A stretch of 64,000 bases of DNA, from positions 283,000 to 346,999 of the forward strand of contig JAUJOY010000003.1 in assembly GCA_030447385.1 (NCBI GenBank), written 5' to 3'. The DNA is from Mycobacteriales bacterium (GTDB taxonomy: Bacteria > Actinomycetota > Actinomycetes > Mycobacteriales > SCTD01). This document shows, piece by piece, positions 35,457 to 50,403 of this stretch. Both the position numbers and the translations under genes were made by a program. The notes under the pieces were generated by a model. It saw only the letters and a list, made by a program, of their open reading frames with translations. It searched no databases and had not been told where the DNA came from. Within the stretch, counting starts at the first letter, position 1; each line of letters begins with the position of its first letter.

Positions 35457-37817
35457 TCATCGAGGGTCAGGGAACCCCAGGCTGAGGTAGCCAGGTGCGC
35501 GCCTGTTCAGCGAGTGGGCCAGGACGCCAACATCGGTGTCGTGGTAGTCGTGCACCTGGGCCAGCACCTTGCCGGGGTGGGGCCGGACGATCCGGCCGAC
35601 GTACTGCACGAGCCGGCCCTTGAACGCGATCGGCGCGACGAGGAACAGCGTGTCGAGCGCGGGGCAGTCGAAGCCCTCGCCAAGGTAGGAGCCGGTGGCC
35701 ACCGCGAGCAGCGGCGGCCCGCCGTCCGGGGGCACGAGCCGGTCAAGCGCTGCCGCGCGCGCCTTAACGCCGAGACCGCCCCGGAGCACGACAGGGTCGT
35801 GGCCCATGCCACGCAGCGCTTCGGCGAGAAACTCGACGTGGCGGGTCCACTGGGTGAGCACGAGGCAGTGCCTGCCCGCCTCGAGAGCGGCGTGGACGTC
35901 GGTCAGCACCTGCTCGTTGCGGCCCGGGTCGTCAACCAGGGCCCGGTAGACGGCCTGGATCGCCCCGGGACGAGACAGGTCGTCGTCGGTGTCGAAGGCG
36001 AAGCCCGTGAGATGCACGAGCACCTCCCGTCGCAGCGGTGGTGCTCCGTCGAGGGTGTCGCCGGCGCTGTGCTTGATCTCGTGCCGGACGGGTCCGCACT
36101 GCTGGAAGATCAGCTCGTCGAGACCGTCGCGCCGGTAGGGGGTGGCCGTCAGGCCCAGCCAGCGCCGCACCGGGATCTGGCGTACGGCGTTCTCGAACGC
36201 GACCGCAGGCACGTGATGGCACTCGTCGACGATCACCAGCCCGTACGCAGCGGTGACCTCGCCGACGTCTGTCCGCTTGCTGAGCGTCTGCAAGGTGGCG
36301 ACGTCGACGACGCCGGTACGCCTGTCCTTGCCGCCTCCGATCTGGCCGGCCGACACCCCGAGGAACTCCAGGAGTCGGGCCCGCCACTGGTCGAGCAGCG
36401 GCTTGCGGTCCACCAGGACCAGGGTGGGCACAGCGTGCTCGGCGATGAGGGCGCAGGCGATCACGGTCTTGCCGGCGCCTGGCGGCGCGACCAGCATCCC
36501 GAGCTCGTGCTCGGATAGGGCGTCGGCTGCGCGAGCCTGGTCCAGTCCGAGCTGCGCCGTGAACGCGAACTCCTGCCGGGCCGGCTCGGGCCGCGTGTCG
36601 CTCAGCTGCAGGCGGCTGCCGACCTCGGTGACGAGCGCTTCGACGCTGGAGCGCATCCCGCGCGGCACGGTGAAGTCCTCAAGGTCCTCGTAGTAGCAGC
36701 GCAGGAACCGCGGCAGGTTGTAGGTCGACATGCGCCGGCGCTCCCGCTCGTAGAAGACCGGGTTGGGCATCGACGCTGCGTGCTTCAGCGTCGCCAGCAG
36801 GGCGGCGGGAAGCGTCGTGCGGTCAAGGGCGAGGCCGGCTCCGAGCCTCGCCGGGATGAACGGCGGTGCCGGCGGGTGGATGCGCGAGGCGGTCGATCGA
36901 CGCAGCCGATCGACCTCGGAGCCGGTGGTGACGGCCGCTGCACGGTTCGCCAGCCGGTCGAGCTCCTTCGGGGTGATGCGTCCGACCGTGGACAGGTAGG
37001 CCCACTGGTCCTCCTGCGGCTCCAGGGTGCTCAGGTCCAGGAAGACCGTCGCCCCGCGACGCCGGCACTGCCCCTGCAGGGGAGCGGCGATGAGGTTCCC
37101 GATGGCGTCCAGGCCAGGCAGCGTGTCCTGCGAGGGGAACAGCCGGTCGTAGCTGCTCAGGTCCATCTCACCGCGAAGAGTCATGGCCTCCCGGAGCAGG
37201 CCCATCCCGAGCCTGCGAGCGGTGGCAGCGGGCACGGCGCCAGTGAAGAAGAGCCACACGTGCGCACCGACTCCGGAGCGGGAGACCTCGAGCGCCGCAG
37301 GGGCGCCCAGTGCGCGGGTCGCCTTGAGGTAGGACAACGCATCCAGCAGCGCTGCCGGGCCGTCGAAGTCCGCGGCGACCCAGTGGCAGCGGTTGTCGGC
37401 CTTGAGCGGGTACAGGCCGACGTGGAGCTCGCCGCTCAGGTGGGCCGCGACGATCTTGTCGGTCAAGGGCAGGTACTGAGGCTTGGACGCTCCGCTGCCC
37501 TTGCGCCAGCCACCAGGAACCGCCGGCACCCACCCCGCCCGGCCGGTGCGGGCGTTCTCCCAGCGCGTGGCATAGACGTCCTGACGGCAGGCGAACATGG
37601 CTCGGAAGAACGCGACCTTGGTCGCCGGGTCGGACCGCGCGTGCACGGGCCCGGGAGGCCGCTCAAACAGGCCGGACTGAGCCGGACCTGGAGCCGCCGC
37701 TTCCTGCGGGCTGAGTCGGAGCAGCCGCAGCAGGCGGTCGTTCTCCGCCTGGAGCCGGACGACAGCGGCGCGCAGCTCGTCGAGCTCGACATCGAGCGCC
37801 AGCACGTGCTGCGTCAT
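35457..37817 (-). CDS. Primase-helicase fusion of the TOTE conflict-system type
   Basis: A 786-residue fusion. Residues 5-35 form a coiled coil. An archaeo-eukaryotic primase domain follows, with WVAADFDGP (Asp150, Asp152) and VSRSGVGAHVWLFF (Ser181 to His186), then DRLFPSQD and GNLIAAPLQ. From about 415 there is a superfamily 2 helicase: Walker A APPGAGKT (444-451), DECHH (531-535), TATPYRRDGLDE and QYVGRIVR. This arrangement matches proteins annotated as TOTE conflict-system primases, thought to act in defence. No nuclease gene is adjacent. It lies in an island next to a toxin-antitoxin pair. Start at 37817 gives a complete N-terminus. Confidence 0.8.
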   Translation of the reverse strand: MTQHVLALDVELDELRAAVVRLQAENDRLLRLLRLSPQEAAAPGPAQSGLFERPPGPVHARSDPATKVAFFRAMFACRQDVYATRWENARTGRAGWVPAVPGGWRKGSGASKPQYLPLTDKIVAAHLSGELHVGLYPLKADNRCHWVAADFDGPAALLDALSYLKATRALGAPAALEVSRSGVGAHVWLFFTGAVPAATARRLGMGLLREAMTLRGEMDLSSYDRLFPSQDTLPGLDAIGNLIAAPLQGQCRRRGATVFLDLSTLEPQEDQWAYLSTVGRITPKELDRLANRAAAVTTGSEVDRLRRSTASRIHPPAPPFIPARLGAGLALDRTTLPAALLATLKHAASMPNPVFYERERRRMSTYNLPRFLRCYYEDLEDFTVPRGMRSSVEALVTEVGSRLQLSDTRPEPARQEFAFTAQLGLDQARAADALSEHELGMLVAPPGAGKTVIACALIAEHAVPTLVLVDRKPLLDQWRARLLEFLGVSAGQIGGGKDRRTGVVDVATLQTLSKRTDVGEVTAAYGLVIVDECHHVPAVAFENAVRQIPVRRWLGLTATPYRRDGLDELIFQQCGPVRHEIKHSAGDTLDGAPPLRREVLVHLTGFAFDTDDDLSRPGAIQAVYRALVDDPGRNEQVLTDVHAALEAGRHCLVLTQWTRHVEFLAEALRGMGHDPVVLRGGLGVKARAAALDRLVPPDGGPPLLAVATGSYLGEGFDCPALDTLFLVAPIAFKGRLVQYVGRIVRPHPGKVLAQVHDYHDTDVGVLAHSLNRRAPGYLSLGFPDPR

Positions 37818-41239: not shown

Positions 41240-41313
41240 GGACGTATAGCTCAGCTGGTTAGAGCGCACGCTTCACACGCGTGAGGTCGCAGGTTCGAGT
41301 CCTGCTACGTCCA
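41240..41313 (+). tRNA. tRNA-Val (anticodon CAC)
   Basis: Acceptor GGACGTA, D arm GCTCAGCTGGTTAGAGC, anticodon stem CACGC/GCGTG around TTCACAC (anticodon CAC), T arm CAGGTTCGAGTCCTG, acceptor TACGTCC with discriminator A. CCA is not encoded. Its 3' end is the attachment site of the adjacent integrative element. Confidence 0.97.
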
Positions 41314-41314
41314 C
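41286..41314. repeat. Left att site of the integrative element (tRNA-Val 3' end)
   Basis: 29 bp from GTCGCAGG to GTCCAC, covering the T arm and acceptor of tRNA-Val(CAC), repeated exactly at 50375-50403. The tRNA stays complete on this side. Confidence 0.9.
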
Positions 41315-41317
41315 ACC

Positions 41318-41343
41318 GAAACCCCTGATTCGCAGGGGGTTTC
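41318..41343 (+). terminator. Hairpin terminator after tRNA-Val(CAC)
   Basis: GAAACCCCTG (41318-41327) pairs with CAGGGGGTTTC (41333-41343), with one bulged G, around a 5-nt loop, 4 bp after the tRNA 3' end. Confidence 0.65.
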
Positions 41344-41473
41344 AGATCTAGACCCTCCGCCGTGCCACTGGGCGTGCCATTCGCACCTTGTCCGGTGCCG
41401 ACAACGGGCGGGAGCCTTGGGCGTGTTGCGGCCGTCCTGTCCCCGGGTGGCGTAGCGTCCTGCGCCGTCGCTA

Positions 41474-41589
41474 GGTCCGTGGCCCGGCGGCGGTGAGAAC
41501 GGCGTGAGGGCCCGTGGTCCACGTCGGGACAGGACGACAGCAGGCCCGTGGCCAGGCAGTCGGTGCAGCACTCCACACCAGGCCCGTGG
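41474..41589. repeat. Four GGYCCGTGG repeats, spaced about 35 bp, beside the left att
   Basis: GGTCCGTGG at 41474 and GGCCCGTGG at 41509, 41543 and 41581, all in one orientation and 34-38 bp apart. They lie between the left att site and the excisionase-like gene. The rest of 41344-41650 shows no ORF with coding-like bias. Confidence 0.5.
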
Positions 41590-41650
41590 CCGGCGTGGAC
41601 TCCACCGCCAATGCCGCCACCGCGTGCGGCCCCTCGCCGGGAGTCCTCCT

Positions 41651-41869
41651 GTGAACGTCCGTCTGCCCGACCCCGCCCCACCCGCACCGCAGTACGAGAC
41701 CCTGGCCGAGGTGGCCGCCCGCTACAACTGCAGCACCAAGACGGTGCGCAGACGCATCGCTGAGGGCAAGCTCACGGCCTACCGCCTCGGCCCGCACCTG
41801 ATCCGGATCGACCGCGCCGAGGCAGACGCCCTGCTGCGCCCGATCCCGGCCGCCGCGCACAGCGCGTGA
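41651..41869 (+). CDS. Excisionase-like helix-turn-helix protein
   Basis: A 72-residue MerR/Xis-type DNA-binding protein: YETLAEVAARYNCSTKTVRR, IAEGKLTAYRLGPHLIRIDR. This is the short-form excisionase/recombination directionality factor architecture. GTG start with GGGAG about 8 nt upstream. It is the first gene after the left att site, and the repeats upstream could be its binding sites or integrase arm sites. Confidence 0.85.
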   Translation: MNVRLPDPAPPAPQYETLAEVAARYNCSTKTVRRRIAEGKLTAYRLGPHLIRIDRAEADALLRPIPAAAHSA

Positions 41870-41909
41870 ACCGGAAGGCTGCCGACGCCGGCGTGAGCGG
41901 CGTTGCCTG

Positions 41910-42770
41910 ATGGCCGCCGACCTTGACGGGTACTCCCAGGTGCCGGCTGTGCTGCTGCTGGCCGACGTGAGCGACCGCGCCGTACGCCTCTGGGCGGTCC
42001 TCGACTGCCACCAGCGCGGGCGCACCGTGGCGTGGCCCAGCCGCGCCACCCTGCAGGCCCTTCTGCGCTGCTCGGCCGACTCCGTGGACCGGGCCGTGGT
42101 CGAGCTAGAGAACTCCGGCCTGGTCGTCGTGCAACGGCGCGCCGACAAGGGCGCCACCAACCGGTACAGCCTGCGTGGTCGGCCGCGGGACGGAGCCGCA
42201 GGTAGCCGCACCGGTGCGGCTAGCGCTAGCCGCTCGGATGCGGCTACCGACGGCGCAGGTAGCCGCACCGGTGCGGACCGGGTAGCCGCACCGGTGCGGC
42301 CCAAAGCAGAGGAAAGAAACAGAGACACCACCTCCACCACCGTCACCGCGCCGGCCGCGGACGAGTCGGCAGCAGACGGAGGAGGAGGTGAGGAGCAGCT
42401 ACGACAGGCAGAACACGCCCTGCTCGCCGCCGTGCCGGCGTCGGTGCGTCAGCAGGTCAAGCCCTCGCCGGCAGCACGTCGGTGCATCGCCACCGCGACC
42501 GAGAAGGGCTGGACCGTGGACCAGCTCCAGGCCGTCGCTGCGGAGCCCTGGGACGGCGCAGCACGCCCCGCCGCGGTGTGGCTGACCCGTCTGCGGGAGT
42601 GCTCCACCAGCACGCCGCCGCCGCCGGTACAGGACGACCAGGCCGCGCCCCGACCCGCCTGCGGCCACTGCAGCCCGACCCGCCGGCTGGAGGATCCCGA
42701 CGACGGCGCCGACCTGGGGCCGTGCCCGCGGTGCCACTGGAGCCTGCCCGCGCAGGAGGCGGTCGCGTGA
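41910..42770 (+). CDS. Replication-initiation-like HTH protein with internal iteron-like array
   Basis: A 286-residue protein with an N-terminal winged-helix/HTH (VSDRAVRLWAVLDCHQRG, WPSRATLQALLRCSADSVDR and VELENSGLVVVQRRADKGA) like phage and plasmid replication organisers, then a low-complexity middle with GSRTGA repeats (about 97-127) encoded by 19-bp palindromic repeats, and a C-terminal part with a CGHC/CPRC zinc-ribbon-like pair (ACGHCSPTRR, GPCPRCHWSL). It overlaps the next gene by 4 nt (GTGA). Like lambda O, it may contain its own origin. Whether it initiates replication is inference. Confidence 0.65.
   Translation: MAADLDGYSQVPAVLLLADVSDRAVRLWAVLDCHQRGRTVAWPSRATLQALLRCSADSVDRAVVELENSGLVVVQRRADKGATNRYSLRGRPRDGAAGSRTGAASASRSDAATDGAGSRTGADRVAAPVRPKAEERNRDTTSTTVTAPAADESAADGGGGEEQLRQAEHALLAAVPASVRQQVKPSPAARRCIATATEKGWTVDQLQAVAAEPWDGAARPAAVWLTRLRECSTSTPPPPVQDDQAAPRPACGHCSPTRRLEDPDDGADLGPCPRCHWSLPAQEAVA
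42201..42299. repeat. Iteron-like palindrome array inside the replication-type gene
   Basis: GGTAGCCGCACCGGTGCGG occurs exactly at 42201, 42258 and 42281. The first extends to a perfect 20-bp palindrome, TAGCCGCACCGGTGCGGCTA (42203-42222), and overlaps a second perfect one, CGGCTAGCGCTAGCCG (42217-42232). A diverged inverted copy, beginning GGTAGCCGCA when read on the minus strand, ends at 42248. Clustered repeats like this in a rep-type gene are candidate origin iterons. Confidence 0.8.
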
Positions 42771-43099
42771 ACCTCCACCGCATCGACCCCGACGACCAGC
42801 GTGCCCTGCAGGCGCTGACCGTGCCGCTGGCCGAAGGCGTGGCCCTGGCCGAGTGCGTTGCCCCTGACGGCTCCACGGCGTTCTGGCTGCTGCAGGCCGG
42901 CAGCCACACCTACGGCTGCGCCTGCCGTCGCTGCGTGCCGCACGAGCTCACCGGCCGGCTGCCCGTCGAGCTCCGCGACCGCCTCGGCCTGGTCCACCGC
43001 TGCGGCGCACCGACCCGCAGCACCGGGCAGCCCTGCCGCAGCATCGTGCAGGACCCCGACGCCACCTGTACCTCGCACCTGCGACAGACCCGCCCATGA
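42767..43099 (+). CDS. Small cysteine-rich protein of the integrative element
   Basis: A 110-residue protein with several Cys/His pairs: YGCACRRCVPHE, LVHRCGAPTRSTGQPC and DATCTSHL. It could hold one or two zinc sites, with the C-terminal CGAP..C..C..H spacing like a small treble-clef. It overlaps both neighbours by 4 nt and belongs to a tightly packed operon. I do not recognise the family. Confidence 0.6.
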   Translation: MNLHRIDPDDQRALQALTVPLAEGVALAECVAPDGSTAFWLLQAGSHTYGCACRRCVPHELTGRLPVELRDRLGLVHRCGAPTRSTGQPCRSIVQDPDATCTSHLRQTRP

Positions 43100-43584
43100 G
43101 GCGCGACCGCACCGGTGAGCTGCTGGAAGACGACGACGTGCACCTGGTCCCCGCCGCCGCGCAGGACATGCACGCCTGCGAAGGAGGCTGGGCCGGCGAG
43201 GACGACGATGGCCGCCCAACACCGTGCCGCACCTGCCGGCCGCACCTGCCGGCCGCACGCCGCGGGTCCCGGCTGATCGTGCCGCCCTCGGCCGGCACGC
43301 TGGCCATGAGCGAGGCCGCGTGGCAGACGATGATCACCGACTACGCCACGCTGACCGGCTGGCGCTGGCATCACCAGCGCCTCAGCAAGCAGTCACGCCC
43401 GGGTTGGCCTGACCTGACCCTCTGCCGTTCTTCCCGCTTGATCTTCGCCGAGCTGAAGACCGAGCGCGGCACCGTGCGCCCCGAGCAGACCGCGTGGCTT
43501 CACGCCCTGCGCGAGGTGCCCTCCTGCGAGGTGTTCGTCTGGAGGCCACGTCACTGGGCCCTCGTGCAGCAGGTGCTCCGGTGA
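43096..43584 (+). CDS. VRR-NUC domain nuclease
   Basis: A 162-residue protein whose second half is a VRR-NUC domain of the PD-(D/E)xK fold. WHHQRLSKQSRPGWPDLTLC supplies the metal-binding Asp106, LIFAELKTERG gives Glu119 and Lys121, and VRPEQTAWLHALREV completes the domain. The N-terminal part has Cys/His pairs (MHACEGGW, CRTCRPHL) perhaps binding zinc. Such nucleases are frequent in phages and satellites, where they cut or process DNA. It overlaps its neighbours by 4 nt each. Confidence 0.85.
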   Translation: MRRDRTGELLEDDDVHLVPAAAQDMHACEGGWAGEDDDGRPTPCRTCRPHLPAARRGSRLIVPPSAGTLAMSEAAWQTMITDYATLTGWRWHHQRLSKQSRPGWPDLTLCRSSRLIFAELKTERGTVRPEQTAWLHALREVPSCEVFVWRPRHWALVQQVLR

Positions 43585-45349: not shown

Positions 45350-45838
45350 CGCGGCGCCGCCGGCCGTGAACGGATGAGGCGACCGGCGGGCCGTCCAGGC
45401 GAGACAGCCGCCACAGGCGGCTAACGGGCACCTGGCCGCTGCCGAGGAGATGCTCCGCCCGTTCCCAACGAACCCTTGAGTGCCACGAAGTAGCTCCTGG
45501 AGCACCGGCGCGACCTGCTCGTCGACGAACGGGCCGTCCGCCCACACCCAGACGACACGGGACACCGTGTCACCGTCAACTACGCCGCCTCCTGGGTAGT
45601 CCTTCGCAGCGGCGTTGATCACGGTGTCCCGGTGAGCAACCACCATGCTCCTTGAGCGCCTTCAGCTCGGCGTGCCGCAACGCGAACAGATCGGCGCGAC
45701 GCGGGATTGGCTCCGACGCCACCATTCGCTGAAGGCGTTCGTTCGTTGGCCTTTGCTCTCCTCGTCGATCAGTCGGCTGACCGCGGCGAGCAAGTCAAGG
45801 ACGTAGGGCAGCCGGTCCCGGAACAGAGCAATAGTCAA

Positions 45839-47110
45839 GACCTGTGGATCGGGGTGTCACGCGGCTTGCTGATCACCTCCTGATTCGTCAGGCGTTCGAC
45901 GAGTTTGCCCTTCTCGAAGTTTGCGCCGGCGCGGACGAGGGCGACCAGGTGCGGGGCGTTCACGGCGCGCCAGCGGGCCTGGGCGGACTCGATGAGCTTG
46001 AAGGCCATGGCGACTCCCGCGACTCGCGAGCCGGGGCTGGTGACGCGGGTACGCAACCTGACGGTCGCGAAGGTCGACTCGATCAGGTTGGTCGTGCGCA
46101 GGTGGATCCAGTGCTCGGCGGGGTAGTCGTAGAACGCCAGCAGGTGTCGATCTCGTCGGTGATCTTGGCGACGGCCTTGGGAAACTTCGCGCCGAAGTCG
46201 ATCTCGAAGGCCTTCGCTGCAACCAGGGCATGCTGCGCATGCGGGCGTTGTAGATCTCAGCGAGGCGGCCTTGGCCGACGGGTGCGCCGACTTGGGCAGC
46301 GCGGCCAGCACATTCGCCATGCGATGCCACCAGCAACGCTGTTCCTTGGTTTCGGGAACACGTCGCGGACCGCCTTCCAGAGACAGCGCACCGTCGCCGA
46401 CCGCAAGGACAGGGGCCCGCATGCCGCGGCGCTTGCACGGGCAGCAGGTGTCCAGGACTCAGATGCCTCCTCGCGGAACCCGTCCGCGAGGTGACCACTC
46501 TTCGTGCCGTCAGCCCGCACGCCCAGGATCACCAACAGGCACACCTTGTCCTGCTCGAGGCGGACAGCAGGTGGATCCCGTCGACCCGCATTACGTAGTC
46601 GCAGTCCTTCAACGAGCGCTTGTTGAAGGCCGCGGCCTCCTGCTGCCACTGCGTGGTGAGCCGAAACCTACCGTGGATGCCGACAGACCCGCCCCGGAAC
46701 CCAGGAACTGCTCCAGCGCCGTAGAGTCCAAACTCGACAGGCCGTGCAAGTACAGCAACAGCAGCACCTCGGCGACCTTCGGGGACTTGCCGCGCCCACG
46801 CCGGCAGGATCGCCGAGGAGAACCGCACCCGCTCACCGGTGTCCTCATCAATCCGCCGGTCGTTCACCCGCGGTGCCCGCACCGGCAACGCACCGGCCCC
46901 GGTCGTGATCTCCCGCTCGGCGTGATAGCCGTTGCGCACGACCAGCCGACGGCAGCCTCATCGAGCTGATCGACATGCGCGTCGATGTAGGCCGCGACCT
47001 CGGCCTGCAAGGCTGCGGCCAGCATCGCGCGAGCACCGTCGCGCACGATCTCGGCAGCAGCCAACGACCCGCCGACCACCGTGGCGTCACCGCGCTGTTC
47101 TTGCTGCCCT
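45839..47110 (-). pseudogene. IS256-family (mutator-type) transposase, many frameshifts
   Basis: Recognisable pieces in N-to-C order on the minus strand are MLAAALQAEVAAYIDAHVDQ, RNGYHAEREITTGAGALPVR, APRVNDRRIDEDTGERVRF, LVILGVRADGTKSGHLADGF, KEQRCWWHRMANVLAALPKS, FYDYPAEHWIHLRTTNLIES and MAFKLIESAQARWRAVNAPH. They correspond to the standard mutator-type transposase but lie in all three frames. At least six indels separate them. Confidence 0.8.
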
Positions 47111-48393: not shown

Positions 48394-48962
48394 ATGTCTG
48401 AGCCAATGCCGCCGACCGCAGCCACCGATGGACAAGCGAGGAGGCCAAGTCGCGGGCGGCCGCCGAGAAGGCTTACGCGAAGTCGCAGCGCAACTGGTTC
48501 GCTCGGCACAAGATCCTCACCGGGCTGGGGGGCCTGATTCTCCTGGTCATCATCATCTCGGCTGCAAGCGGAGGAGGAGGCGGAGGCGGAGGTACCGAGA
48601 CCGTGGACACCGAGGCCAACCCGCCTGCCAATGCACCTGCTGCCCCTAAGGCACCGGCTCCTCCGAAGGAGGATGAGGCAACGAAGAACGTCACGGTCAC
48701 GTCGTGTGACGTGAACGATCTTGGTGGTACCAAGTTCGCTGACGTGGGGTACACGATCAACAACCCCACCAGCAAGTCGTCCACATACATCCTGACCATC
48801 GCTGTGATCGATTCTTCCAGGTGCAAGTGTGAGTCGCCAACGGTGTCGAGGCGAACGTGCTTCCGGGGCGCGAGTCAGGGCAAGGCGCAAGGCAATGTCA
48901 GTGACAGCGCGAGGGGCCGTACAAGTGCGAGGTCAAGCGTGACTCGCACCGCCGCCAACTAG
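48394..48962 (+). pseudogene. Single-pass membrane protein with exported beta-like domain, frameshifted
   Basis: ATG 48394 opens MSEPMPPTAATDG. After a shift near 48,430 the main frame reads WTSEEAKSRAAAEKAYAKSQ, one membrane helix (ILTGLGGLILLVIIISAAS), a glycine run, an Ala/Pro linker, then NVTVTSCDVNDLGGTKFADV and GYTINNPTSKSSTYILTIAV, a pattern like FxLYD/DUF4352 extracytoplasmic domains. Shifts near 48,818 and 48,885 split the end (EANVLPGRESGQ, GPYKCEVKR). Such proteins are frequent cargo of actinobacterial phages and integrative elements. Confidence 0.6.
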
Positions 48963-49066
48963 GCAACATCACCCTCGCTTTCGTCCCGCGCCACCCCGCC
49001 GCCCGCTCCAGCTCGTGCTCGGCATAACGCGCAAGCCGCTGCTGCCCGCTCCGCGTACGGACCCGG

Positions 49067-50193
49067 TCACCGACCACCGACCCGGCGCAGCGGCACCACG
49101 TTGTCGGTGGCGAACCCGGACAGCTTCGGCTATCGCGGCGTCGGTCTGCGAACAGCGTGCTGGTAACGCATCGCTGCCGCGGGGTCGAGTGCCCGAGCCG
49201 GGCCATCAGGTCCGCGAGCGTGGCGCCCGTTGCCGCCGCCAGGGTCGCCCCGGTGTGCCGCAGGTCGTGGAAGCGCAGATCCTCTACCTGCTGCGCTGCG
49301 CGTGCCTTCGCCCACGGCCCGTGCAGCGTCGTGGCCGCGAGGTGGCCGCCGCCGTGCGCCGGGAACAGCAGCGAGTCGGCAGCGGGCGGCACATGCCGTT
49401 CTAGGTGATCCTCGAGCGCGGGCAGCAGGTGCGGCGGGATCGACACCGCGCCTGGTGCCGGCGTGCGACTTCGGGGTCCCCGATGAACACCTGGCCGTCG
49501 CGTGGGTCACCGCCCGCTCGACCCGGAGCACCCGCGCGTCGAGTCGACGTCGTCTCCGGCGCAGCTCGGCAAGCTCACCAAACGAAGCCCGCACCACGCC
49601 GCGAGCAGCACCGGTAGCGGTCGGGCATCGCCGCGGTGATCACTTCGAGCTCGCCGAGGCTCGCCACCTTCGTCGAGCTGGTCCCTGCTGGCCCCTGCAC
49701 CCCGGATGCGGCACGGGTTGGTCGGCACGAGGTCGTCGGCAACCGCCGTCGTGTAGATCGACCGCAGGAGGCTGTACGCGTGTGCCCGCCGGGTCGGCGC
49801 CTCCGCGTCCAGGCCGGCATACCAGTTGCGCACCATCGTCGGGGTGATCTTGTCGAGCCGGTGCCGACCGAGCGCGGGCAGGATCAAGGGTGTCGAGCAT
49901 GCCTCGGCGTAGAGCAGGCGGGTGCTCGGCTTGAGGTCGCGGCTCGCGAGCCAAGTCTGCGCGGCGTAGACCTTGAGCGTCGTCGTGGTCGTGGCGCCGG
50001 TGCAGGGCAGCCCAGGTGCCGCGTTCGAGGTCAGCGGCCTGCCCTTTGAGCCACGCGCTGGCGTCGAGCTTGCTGTCGAAGGTGACCGGCGCCGGCCGCA
50101 TGACGCCGTCCTCACCACGGAACCTGGCCTGCCAGCGCCCAGAGGGAAGCTGTCGCGTCGTGCCGCTACCGCCGGCCGCCGCTTGCTCGCCAT
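49067..50193 (-). pseudogene. Tyrosine recombinase (integrase) of the element, frameshifted
   Basis: Pieces in N-to-C order: MASKRRPAVAARR, GRWQARFRGEDGVMRPAPVT, FDSKLDASAWLKGQAADLER, VYAAQTWLASRDLKPSTRLL, LDKITPTMVRNWYAGLDAEA, RRAHAYSLLRSIYTTAVADD, LVPTNPCRIRGA, a SPPHLLPALEDHLERHV-like linker, RFHDLRHTGATLAAATGATL (catalytic H-x-x-R), ADLMARLGHST, MRYQHAV (catalytic Tyr) and FATDNVVPLRRVGGR. Nearly all integrase landmarks are present but in different frames, with at least five shifts. It reads away from the right att site 180 bp upstream, as expected for an integrase beside its attachment site. Confidence 0.85.
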
Positions 50194-50374: not shown

Positions 50375-50403
50375 GTCGCAGGTTCGAGTCCTGCTACGTC
50401 CAC
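50375..50403. repeat. Right att site of the integrative element
   Basis: Exact 29-bp copy of the tRNA-Val(CAC) 3' end (see 41286-41314), without the rest of a tRNA. The chromosome resumes after it; the 141 bp to the osmC start must hold that gene's promoter, but no motif stands out. Confidence 0.9.

Follow-up and report, generated by a model that had tools for sequence, protein, structure and literature searches.

Palindromic repeats inside a putative initiator gene point to a probable lambda-like replication origin in an actinobacterial integrative element

The coding sequence of an HTH gene in an integrative element of a Mycobacteriales bacterium carries a dense group of palindromic repeats, which raises the question of whether they are kept for the DNA or for the peptide that they encode, and what they do. 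We analysed the 64,000-nt stretch of contig JAUJOY010000003.1 that contains this gene (hereafter the window). A preliminary description had reported three exact 19-bp copies, a 20-bp and a 16-bp palindrome and a diverged copy, and we recovered all of them at the same positions, with the 19-mers starting at 42201, 42258 and 42281. They resolve into an array of four 20-bp sites on the forward strand (42203–42302), each with a left arm TAGCCGC, an N6 spacer and a right arm GCGGCTA or a sequence like it. Site 1 (42203–42222, TAGCCGCACCGGTGCGGCTA) is a perfect 20-bp dyad with the spacer ACCGGT, and site 2 (42227–42246, TAGCCGCTCGGATGCGGCTA), which is the diverged copy, retains both 7-bp arms perfectly with the spacer altered to TCGGAT. 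Sites 3 (42260–42279, TAGCCGCACCGGTGCGGACC) and 4 (42283–42302, TAGCCGCACCGGTGCGGCCC) have the ACCGGT spacer and a full left arm, while only GCGG is preserved in the right arm, which reads GCGGacc in site 3 (4/7) and GCGGccc in site 4. The 16-bp palindrome (42217–42232) is the seam joining site 1 to the inverted-looking site 2. The dyad centres are 24, 33 and 23 bp apart; the spacing had been described as close to two helical turns, which does not hold, as 23–24 bp corresponds to ~2.2 turns and the helical phasing is therefore loose. With five matches in the window at up to three mismatches, compared to 0.17 expected, a chance origin of the repeats is excluded.

To separate DNA from peptide, the synonymous codons of the gene were shuffled 3000 times with protein and codon usage held fixed. 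The gene contains 67 inverted 8-mer pairs (shuffle maximum 42), 35 out-of-frame direct pairs (maximum 28) and 29 in-frame pairs (maximum 25), and none of the 3000 shuffles equalled the observed count in any of the three classes. Exact repeats in the gene extend to 23 nt, compared to at most 17 in 500 shuffles. Sites 1, 2 and 3 share a reading frame and encode SRTGA, SRSDA and SRTGA, whereas site 4 lies in another frame and encodes VAAPVRP. The earlier statement that the repeats encode a GSRTGA linker thus stands for the first two 19-mers and fails for the out-of-frame copy at 42281 (VAAPVR). As the same DNA word is kept across reading frames, selection acts on the DNA and not on the peptide; the suggestion of DNA-level selection made in the preliminary description is borne out by the out-of-frame fourth site and by the shuffles.

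The gene that holds the array (41910–42770, forward strand) encodes a putative replication initiator of 286 residues, assigned from PHROG profiles, an AlphaFold2 model and Foldseek PDB matches. The protein consists of a wHTH domain (~residues 10–90), a disordered linker (92–159), a helical C-terminal part (160–233) and a CxxC...CPxC tail. Its PHROG matches are 270 (1.8e-10), 428 (2.1e-7) and the O-like profiles 391 (3.5e-7) and 678 (2.1e-6). The Pfam matches are weak: HTH_36 (PF13730) is the top one but remains sub-threshold (15.6 vs 25 bits), although its cutoff is passed by two homologues, L013 (39.7 bits) and L009 (48.9 bits). Neither Phage_rep_O nor the RepA_N domain (PF06970) is matched at E ≤ 1, and no NCBIfam family matched any of the seven proteins searched. 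The AlphaFold2 model, built with four homologues, has a mean pLDDT of 55.6, so that only its wHTH (confident at ~residues 11–90) is reliable; it places the residues encoded by the sites inside the disordered segment 92–159, with helices at 160–233. Foldseek against the PDB is led by N-domains of plasmid RepA initiators (4pql, 4pta, 4pt7, 5kbj), with DnaD (2v79) after them, as weak, generic wHTH matches (best E 6e-3) mixed with other wHTH proteins. A viral structure library gave matches with low TM-scores, to HTH proteins of phages and to a Gordonia 'RepA-like replication initiator'. A PDB sequence search with the single wHTH domain gave no match, and one with a profile gave mostly generic wHTH regulators. 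In these computations the gene resembles initiator families. The tail, a putative zinc-binding motif (42648–42760), also ends the initiator of L009, and the remaining C-terminus is not clearly alike.

The gene belongs to an element integrated in tRNA-Val(cac) (41240–41314). Its borders, 9.1 kb apart, are 29-bp exact direct repeats on the forward strand, one formed by the 3′ end of the tRNA gene (41286–41314) and the other at 50375–50403. Just upstream of the initiator is an excisionase/MerR-type HTH gene with an inferred start codon (41651–41869, forward; Pfam HTH_17, 28 bits vs cutoff 27; PHROG 66 excisionase, 2.4e-7). The initiator stop is overlapped by a gene for a 110-residue Cys-containing protein without a helicase-loader match (42767–43099, forward), and a VRR-NUC, Holliday-junction-resolvase-like nuclease gene is located at 43096–43584 (forward; PF08774, 1.2e-4, 22.6 bits vs cutoff 23.8; PHROG 93 endonuclease, 2.5e-10; PHROG 5702 Holliday junction resolvase, 9.2e-8). 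On the reverse strand are a remnant of a Mutator-family transposase (45835–46422) and a broken tyrosine integrase (48898–50193), with the catalytic PF00589 and the N-terminal PF14659 on separate ORFs. The split integrase and the transposase remnant suggest that the element is decaying, and it is probably defective and not mobile by itself now. The earlier idea of a plasmid-like or satellite replicon finds only partial support: the att borders favour it, but the broken integrase, the transposase remnant and the lack of a recognisable helicase loader do not. Among the element genes scanned, no helicase, primase or helicase loader was recognised. Neither the initiator ORF nor its sites are damaged; given the decay of the element, however, the origin proposed below may be a fossil. 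Outside the element, a gene on the reverse strand (35457–37817) encodes a 786-residue protein in which a TOTE-conflict-system archaeo-eukaryotic primase domain (E 2e-72) is fused to a ResIII/DEAD helicase; it adjoins a tRNA-Val/Cys/Gly cluster.

Directly after the array, the gene contains a candidate unwinding element. The segment 42301–42336 is the most AT-rich 36 bp of the gene (50% GC compared to 74% for the whole gene) and is A-rich on the forward strand. It begins 1 bp past the iteron end as set in our script, where iteron ends were marked by eye, with a synonymous-shuffle P of 0.002, and the GC dip was also seen in a further computation. The same arrangement was looked for in 19 genes, several of them from closely related Arthrobacter phages and all with iteron ends marked by eye: in 14/19, the AT content of the gene peaks no more than 12 bp from the iteron end, and in 15/19 the depth of the dip exceeds that obtained by synonymous recoding (P ≤ 0.01).

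For a wider comparison, relatives were picked by wHTH similarity alone; phage records, viral contigs, plasmids and genomes all contributed, giving 41 genes in 25 clusters at 60% wHTH identity. As controls we took 36 genes that neighbour them in the phage and plasmid records. PHROG 270, which also matches in control genomes, was too unspecific for counting initiators. Out-of-frame repeats (P ≤ 0.01) were found in 19/25 clusters compared to 2/36 controls (Fisher 9e-9), and inverted repeats (P ≤ 0.01) in 8/25 compared to 0/36 (Fisher 4e-4), in keeping with the preliminary description, which had proposed looking among homologues for different repeats in the same place. The out-of-frame test was failed by six clusters, the Streptomyces and Chlorohelix plasmid genes among them. 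In most homologues the repeats lie directly 3′ of the wHTH, each gene with its own sequence: the units are GGGGTACCCC in Edmundo and Waltz, GGCCCGTCAGCGGGCC in Laroye, GTCGTCACCCGTGACGAC in L014, TCACCAAATTTGGTGA in G273 (L012), GCAGAATCTGC in L079 and TGACAGAGTGTCA in L074. Arthrobacter phages and many uncultured phages have related initiator genes with like sites of differing sequence. The repeat spacing is often 22–25 bp, and the repeats are therefore frequently out of frame. The linker peptide is not common to the homologues while the layout is, which is the opposite of a conserved peptide without DNA palindromes. Some homologues are annotated as 'RepA-like replication initiator', and some of the Arthrobacter genes have as their neighbour a gene for SSB or for an annotated helicase loader. 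No close relative of the initiator was found among the 23 other genomes searched in the same family, a full-length search of genome contigs yielded one relative, and the L014 domain had no match among phage records. A resemblance of the L013 iteron (AGCCGCAGGGGTGCGGCC) to the window iteron (16/18) was dropped as a sign of shared specificity, as shuffled pairs also reach 16. Seven initiator-like genes from genomes of the same phylum group (L018, L021, L025, L026, L028, L032 and L035) also carry strong in-gene repeats; they came from a loose profile search and were left out of the cluster statistics.

We consider it very probable that the repeats are initiator-binding sites (iterons) of a replication origin embedded in the coding sequence for its own initiator, the layout known from lambda O and the staphylococcal RepA_N plasmid pSK41. 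The computations above directly show the repeats and the selection on their DNA, the likeness of the gene to initiator families, the position of the array in the linker, the AT-rich tract next to it and a shared layout among homologues; from these we infer initiator binding, melting, helicase recruitment and actual replication. In this mechanism, wHTH dimers would bind the four TAGCCGC-N6-GCGGCTA dyads, and the resulting nucleoprotein complex would strain the AT-rich tract at 42301–42336 until it opens. The helical C-terminal part may then recruit a replicative helicase or primase, which would come from the host or a helper phage, since the element has no recognisable loader gene. The iteron-encoded peptide would act as a disordered spacer, leaving the DNA free to drift under selection for matching between initiator and sites, and the origin would stay private to each replicon. 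The lambda-O-like origin proposed in the preliminary description appears largely right, given the O-like PHROG profiles, the linker location, the AT-rich tract directly after the repeats and the excess of differing repeats in most homologue clusters.

Alternatively, the dyads could be operators through which the HTH protein controls transcription. Repressors, too, can occupy their operators as wHTH dimers on 20-bp dyads, and the protein does match PHROG 16198, 'transcriptional repressor' (8.7e-5), but this match is weaker than those to the replication-initiation profiles. Furthermore, the sites lie ~300 bp inside the gene, 41300–43000 contains no promoter match (scanned with the sigma-70 consensus only), and the homologues keep several mid-gene sites, mostly with an AT-rich tract after them, a layout that operators leave unexplained. 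An operator function is thus unlikely. The array could also serve another DNA function of a mobile element, as a parS-like partition site, a site of recombination or packaging, or a hairpin in the mRNA. Folding of the strand is indeed much stronger than that of shuffled sequences (z −7.3), an outcome to be expected of nested palindromes in general. Nevertheless, no ParB or terminase was recognised among the element genes scanned, there is no terminator-like site, and such a role would account neither for the AT-rich tract nor for the presence of the array in an initiator-type gene, which makes a function of this kind quite improbable.

We regard as very improbable that the repeats are a low-complexity protein linker grown by tandem duplication, with incidental DNA symmetry. 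In its favour, both of the leading 19-mers encode SRTGA in the same frame, and the 24-bp repeats of Edmundo and Waltz are mostly in frame as well. This reading is largely refuted by the out-of-frame fourth site and by repeat counts that synonymous shuffles never reach; in addition, the spacer of the second site is changed, and the homologues share a layout without sharing a linker peptide. Finally, insertion of a mobile REP/MITE-like palindrome into the gene would explain the palindromic form but is refuted for the present genome, with next to no chance of being correct, as the exact 19-mer occurs nowhere else in its 3.4 Mb.

The AT-rich tracts of otherwise different initiators may share a further, new feature. 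Repeats of the GAACCATCA, GAACCGTCA or GAACCTATCA type occur just after the iterons, in or beside the tract, in ten genes (L009, L067, L076, L078, L081, L082, L084, L085, L026 and L060), in several of them in tandem at 9–12-bp spacing, and Arthrobacter phages have GAACTTAGAA at that place. Among 29 non-Arthrobacter genes, a GAACCATCA-like motif occurs where expected in 14 (mean 5.2 and maximum 10 in 500 shuffles) and in tandem in seven (mean 0.33, maximum 3). As the motif was picked post hoc and six of the 29 genes had been chosen for having repeats, this result is a lead. The window's own tract has no GAACCATCA-like repeat. It is conceivable, although we would not call it probable, that wHTH initiators follow a common rule, in which fast-changing dyad iterons private to each replicon are followed by an AT-rich tract, often with a 9–12-bp tandem repeat (GAACCATCA, or GAACTTAGAA in Arthrobacter phages) that may be read by a shared factor, either a single-strand-binding surface of the initiator or host DnaA. 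If the rule is true, sequence alone would be enough to find the origins of such phages.

In actinobacteria, where temperate phages and integrative elements have poorly mapped origins, out-of-frame dyad repeats within a coding sequence, with an AT-rich tract after them, would place an origin within ~150 bp. Such a rule could yield minimal replicons for GC-rich hosts, and the homologues offer a natural series for the joint change of initiator and sites while the sites must stay translatable. In the literature searched, largely outside subscription journals, we found no published report of an in-gene origin for these actinobacterial and Arthrobacter phage genes.

The in-gene type of origin is itself already known from lambda and RepA_N plasmids (PMC5703833). 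In lambda, the iterons and AT-rich tract lie in the middle of the O gene (PMC7466680, PMC5043065), and the window shares with ori-lambda an HTH-type initiator, ~20-bp dyad iterons mid-gene (four in lambda) and an adjoining AT-rich tract (PMC5043065, PMC7466680). In contrast to O of lambda and of lambdoid/Stx phages, the window initiator matches O-like PHROGs without a Phage_rep_O Pfam match, lies in a 9-kb integrative element rather than a phage, and has no recognisable loader gene (lambda P) directly downstream; we thus propose an origin that works in the manner of lambda, not an element that possesses the lambda O–P module. RepA_N plasmid initiators such as pSK41 Rep, and alongside them pPR9 Rep, a hybrid whose N-domain is HTH_36, can be compared with the window initiator in its predicted N-terminal wHTH and in the central position of its candidate origin boxes; RepA N-domains are its best, though weak, PDB fold matches (E 6e-3), with HTH_36 as the sub-threshold top Pfam match. 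In pSK41 rep, the four Rep boxes are central and the origin-encoded linker can be dispensed with (PMC5703833). The window differs from these plasmids in lacking a RepA_N Pfam match, in its GC-rich dyads, in its chromosomal integrative element and in having the CxxC...CPxC tail where the plasmid proteins have a shown DnaD/DnaG-binding domain. For the mycobacterial phages Miko and Rachaly, which we liken to the window by their published description, an HTH RepA was reported with a lambda-like origin proposed just upstream of or within repA (PMC7157519); in the mycobacterial RepA prophages, no repeats were identified and an origin inside repA was suggested (PMC7157519). A further parallel in domain and layout is to the 'RepA-like replication initiators' of Arthrobacter phages (Lilmac1015, Bolt007, Prairie and Kovu, with the relatives Laroye, Edmundo and Waltz). 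These are full phages with other iteron sequences, some with an adjoining SSB gene or annotated helicase loader, but their wHTH domain is homologous (~32–48% identity to that of L013, and 39.5% between Edmundo and the window), and most of them have in-gene repeats with an AT-rich tract after.
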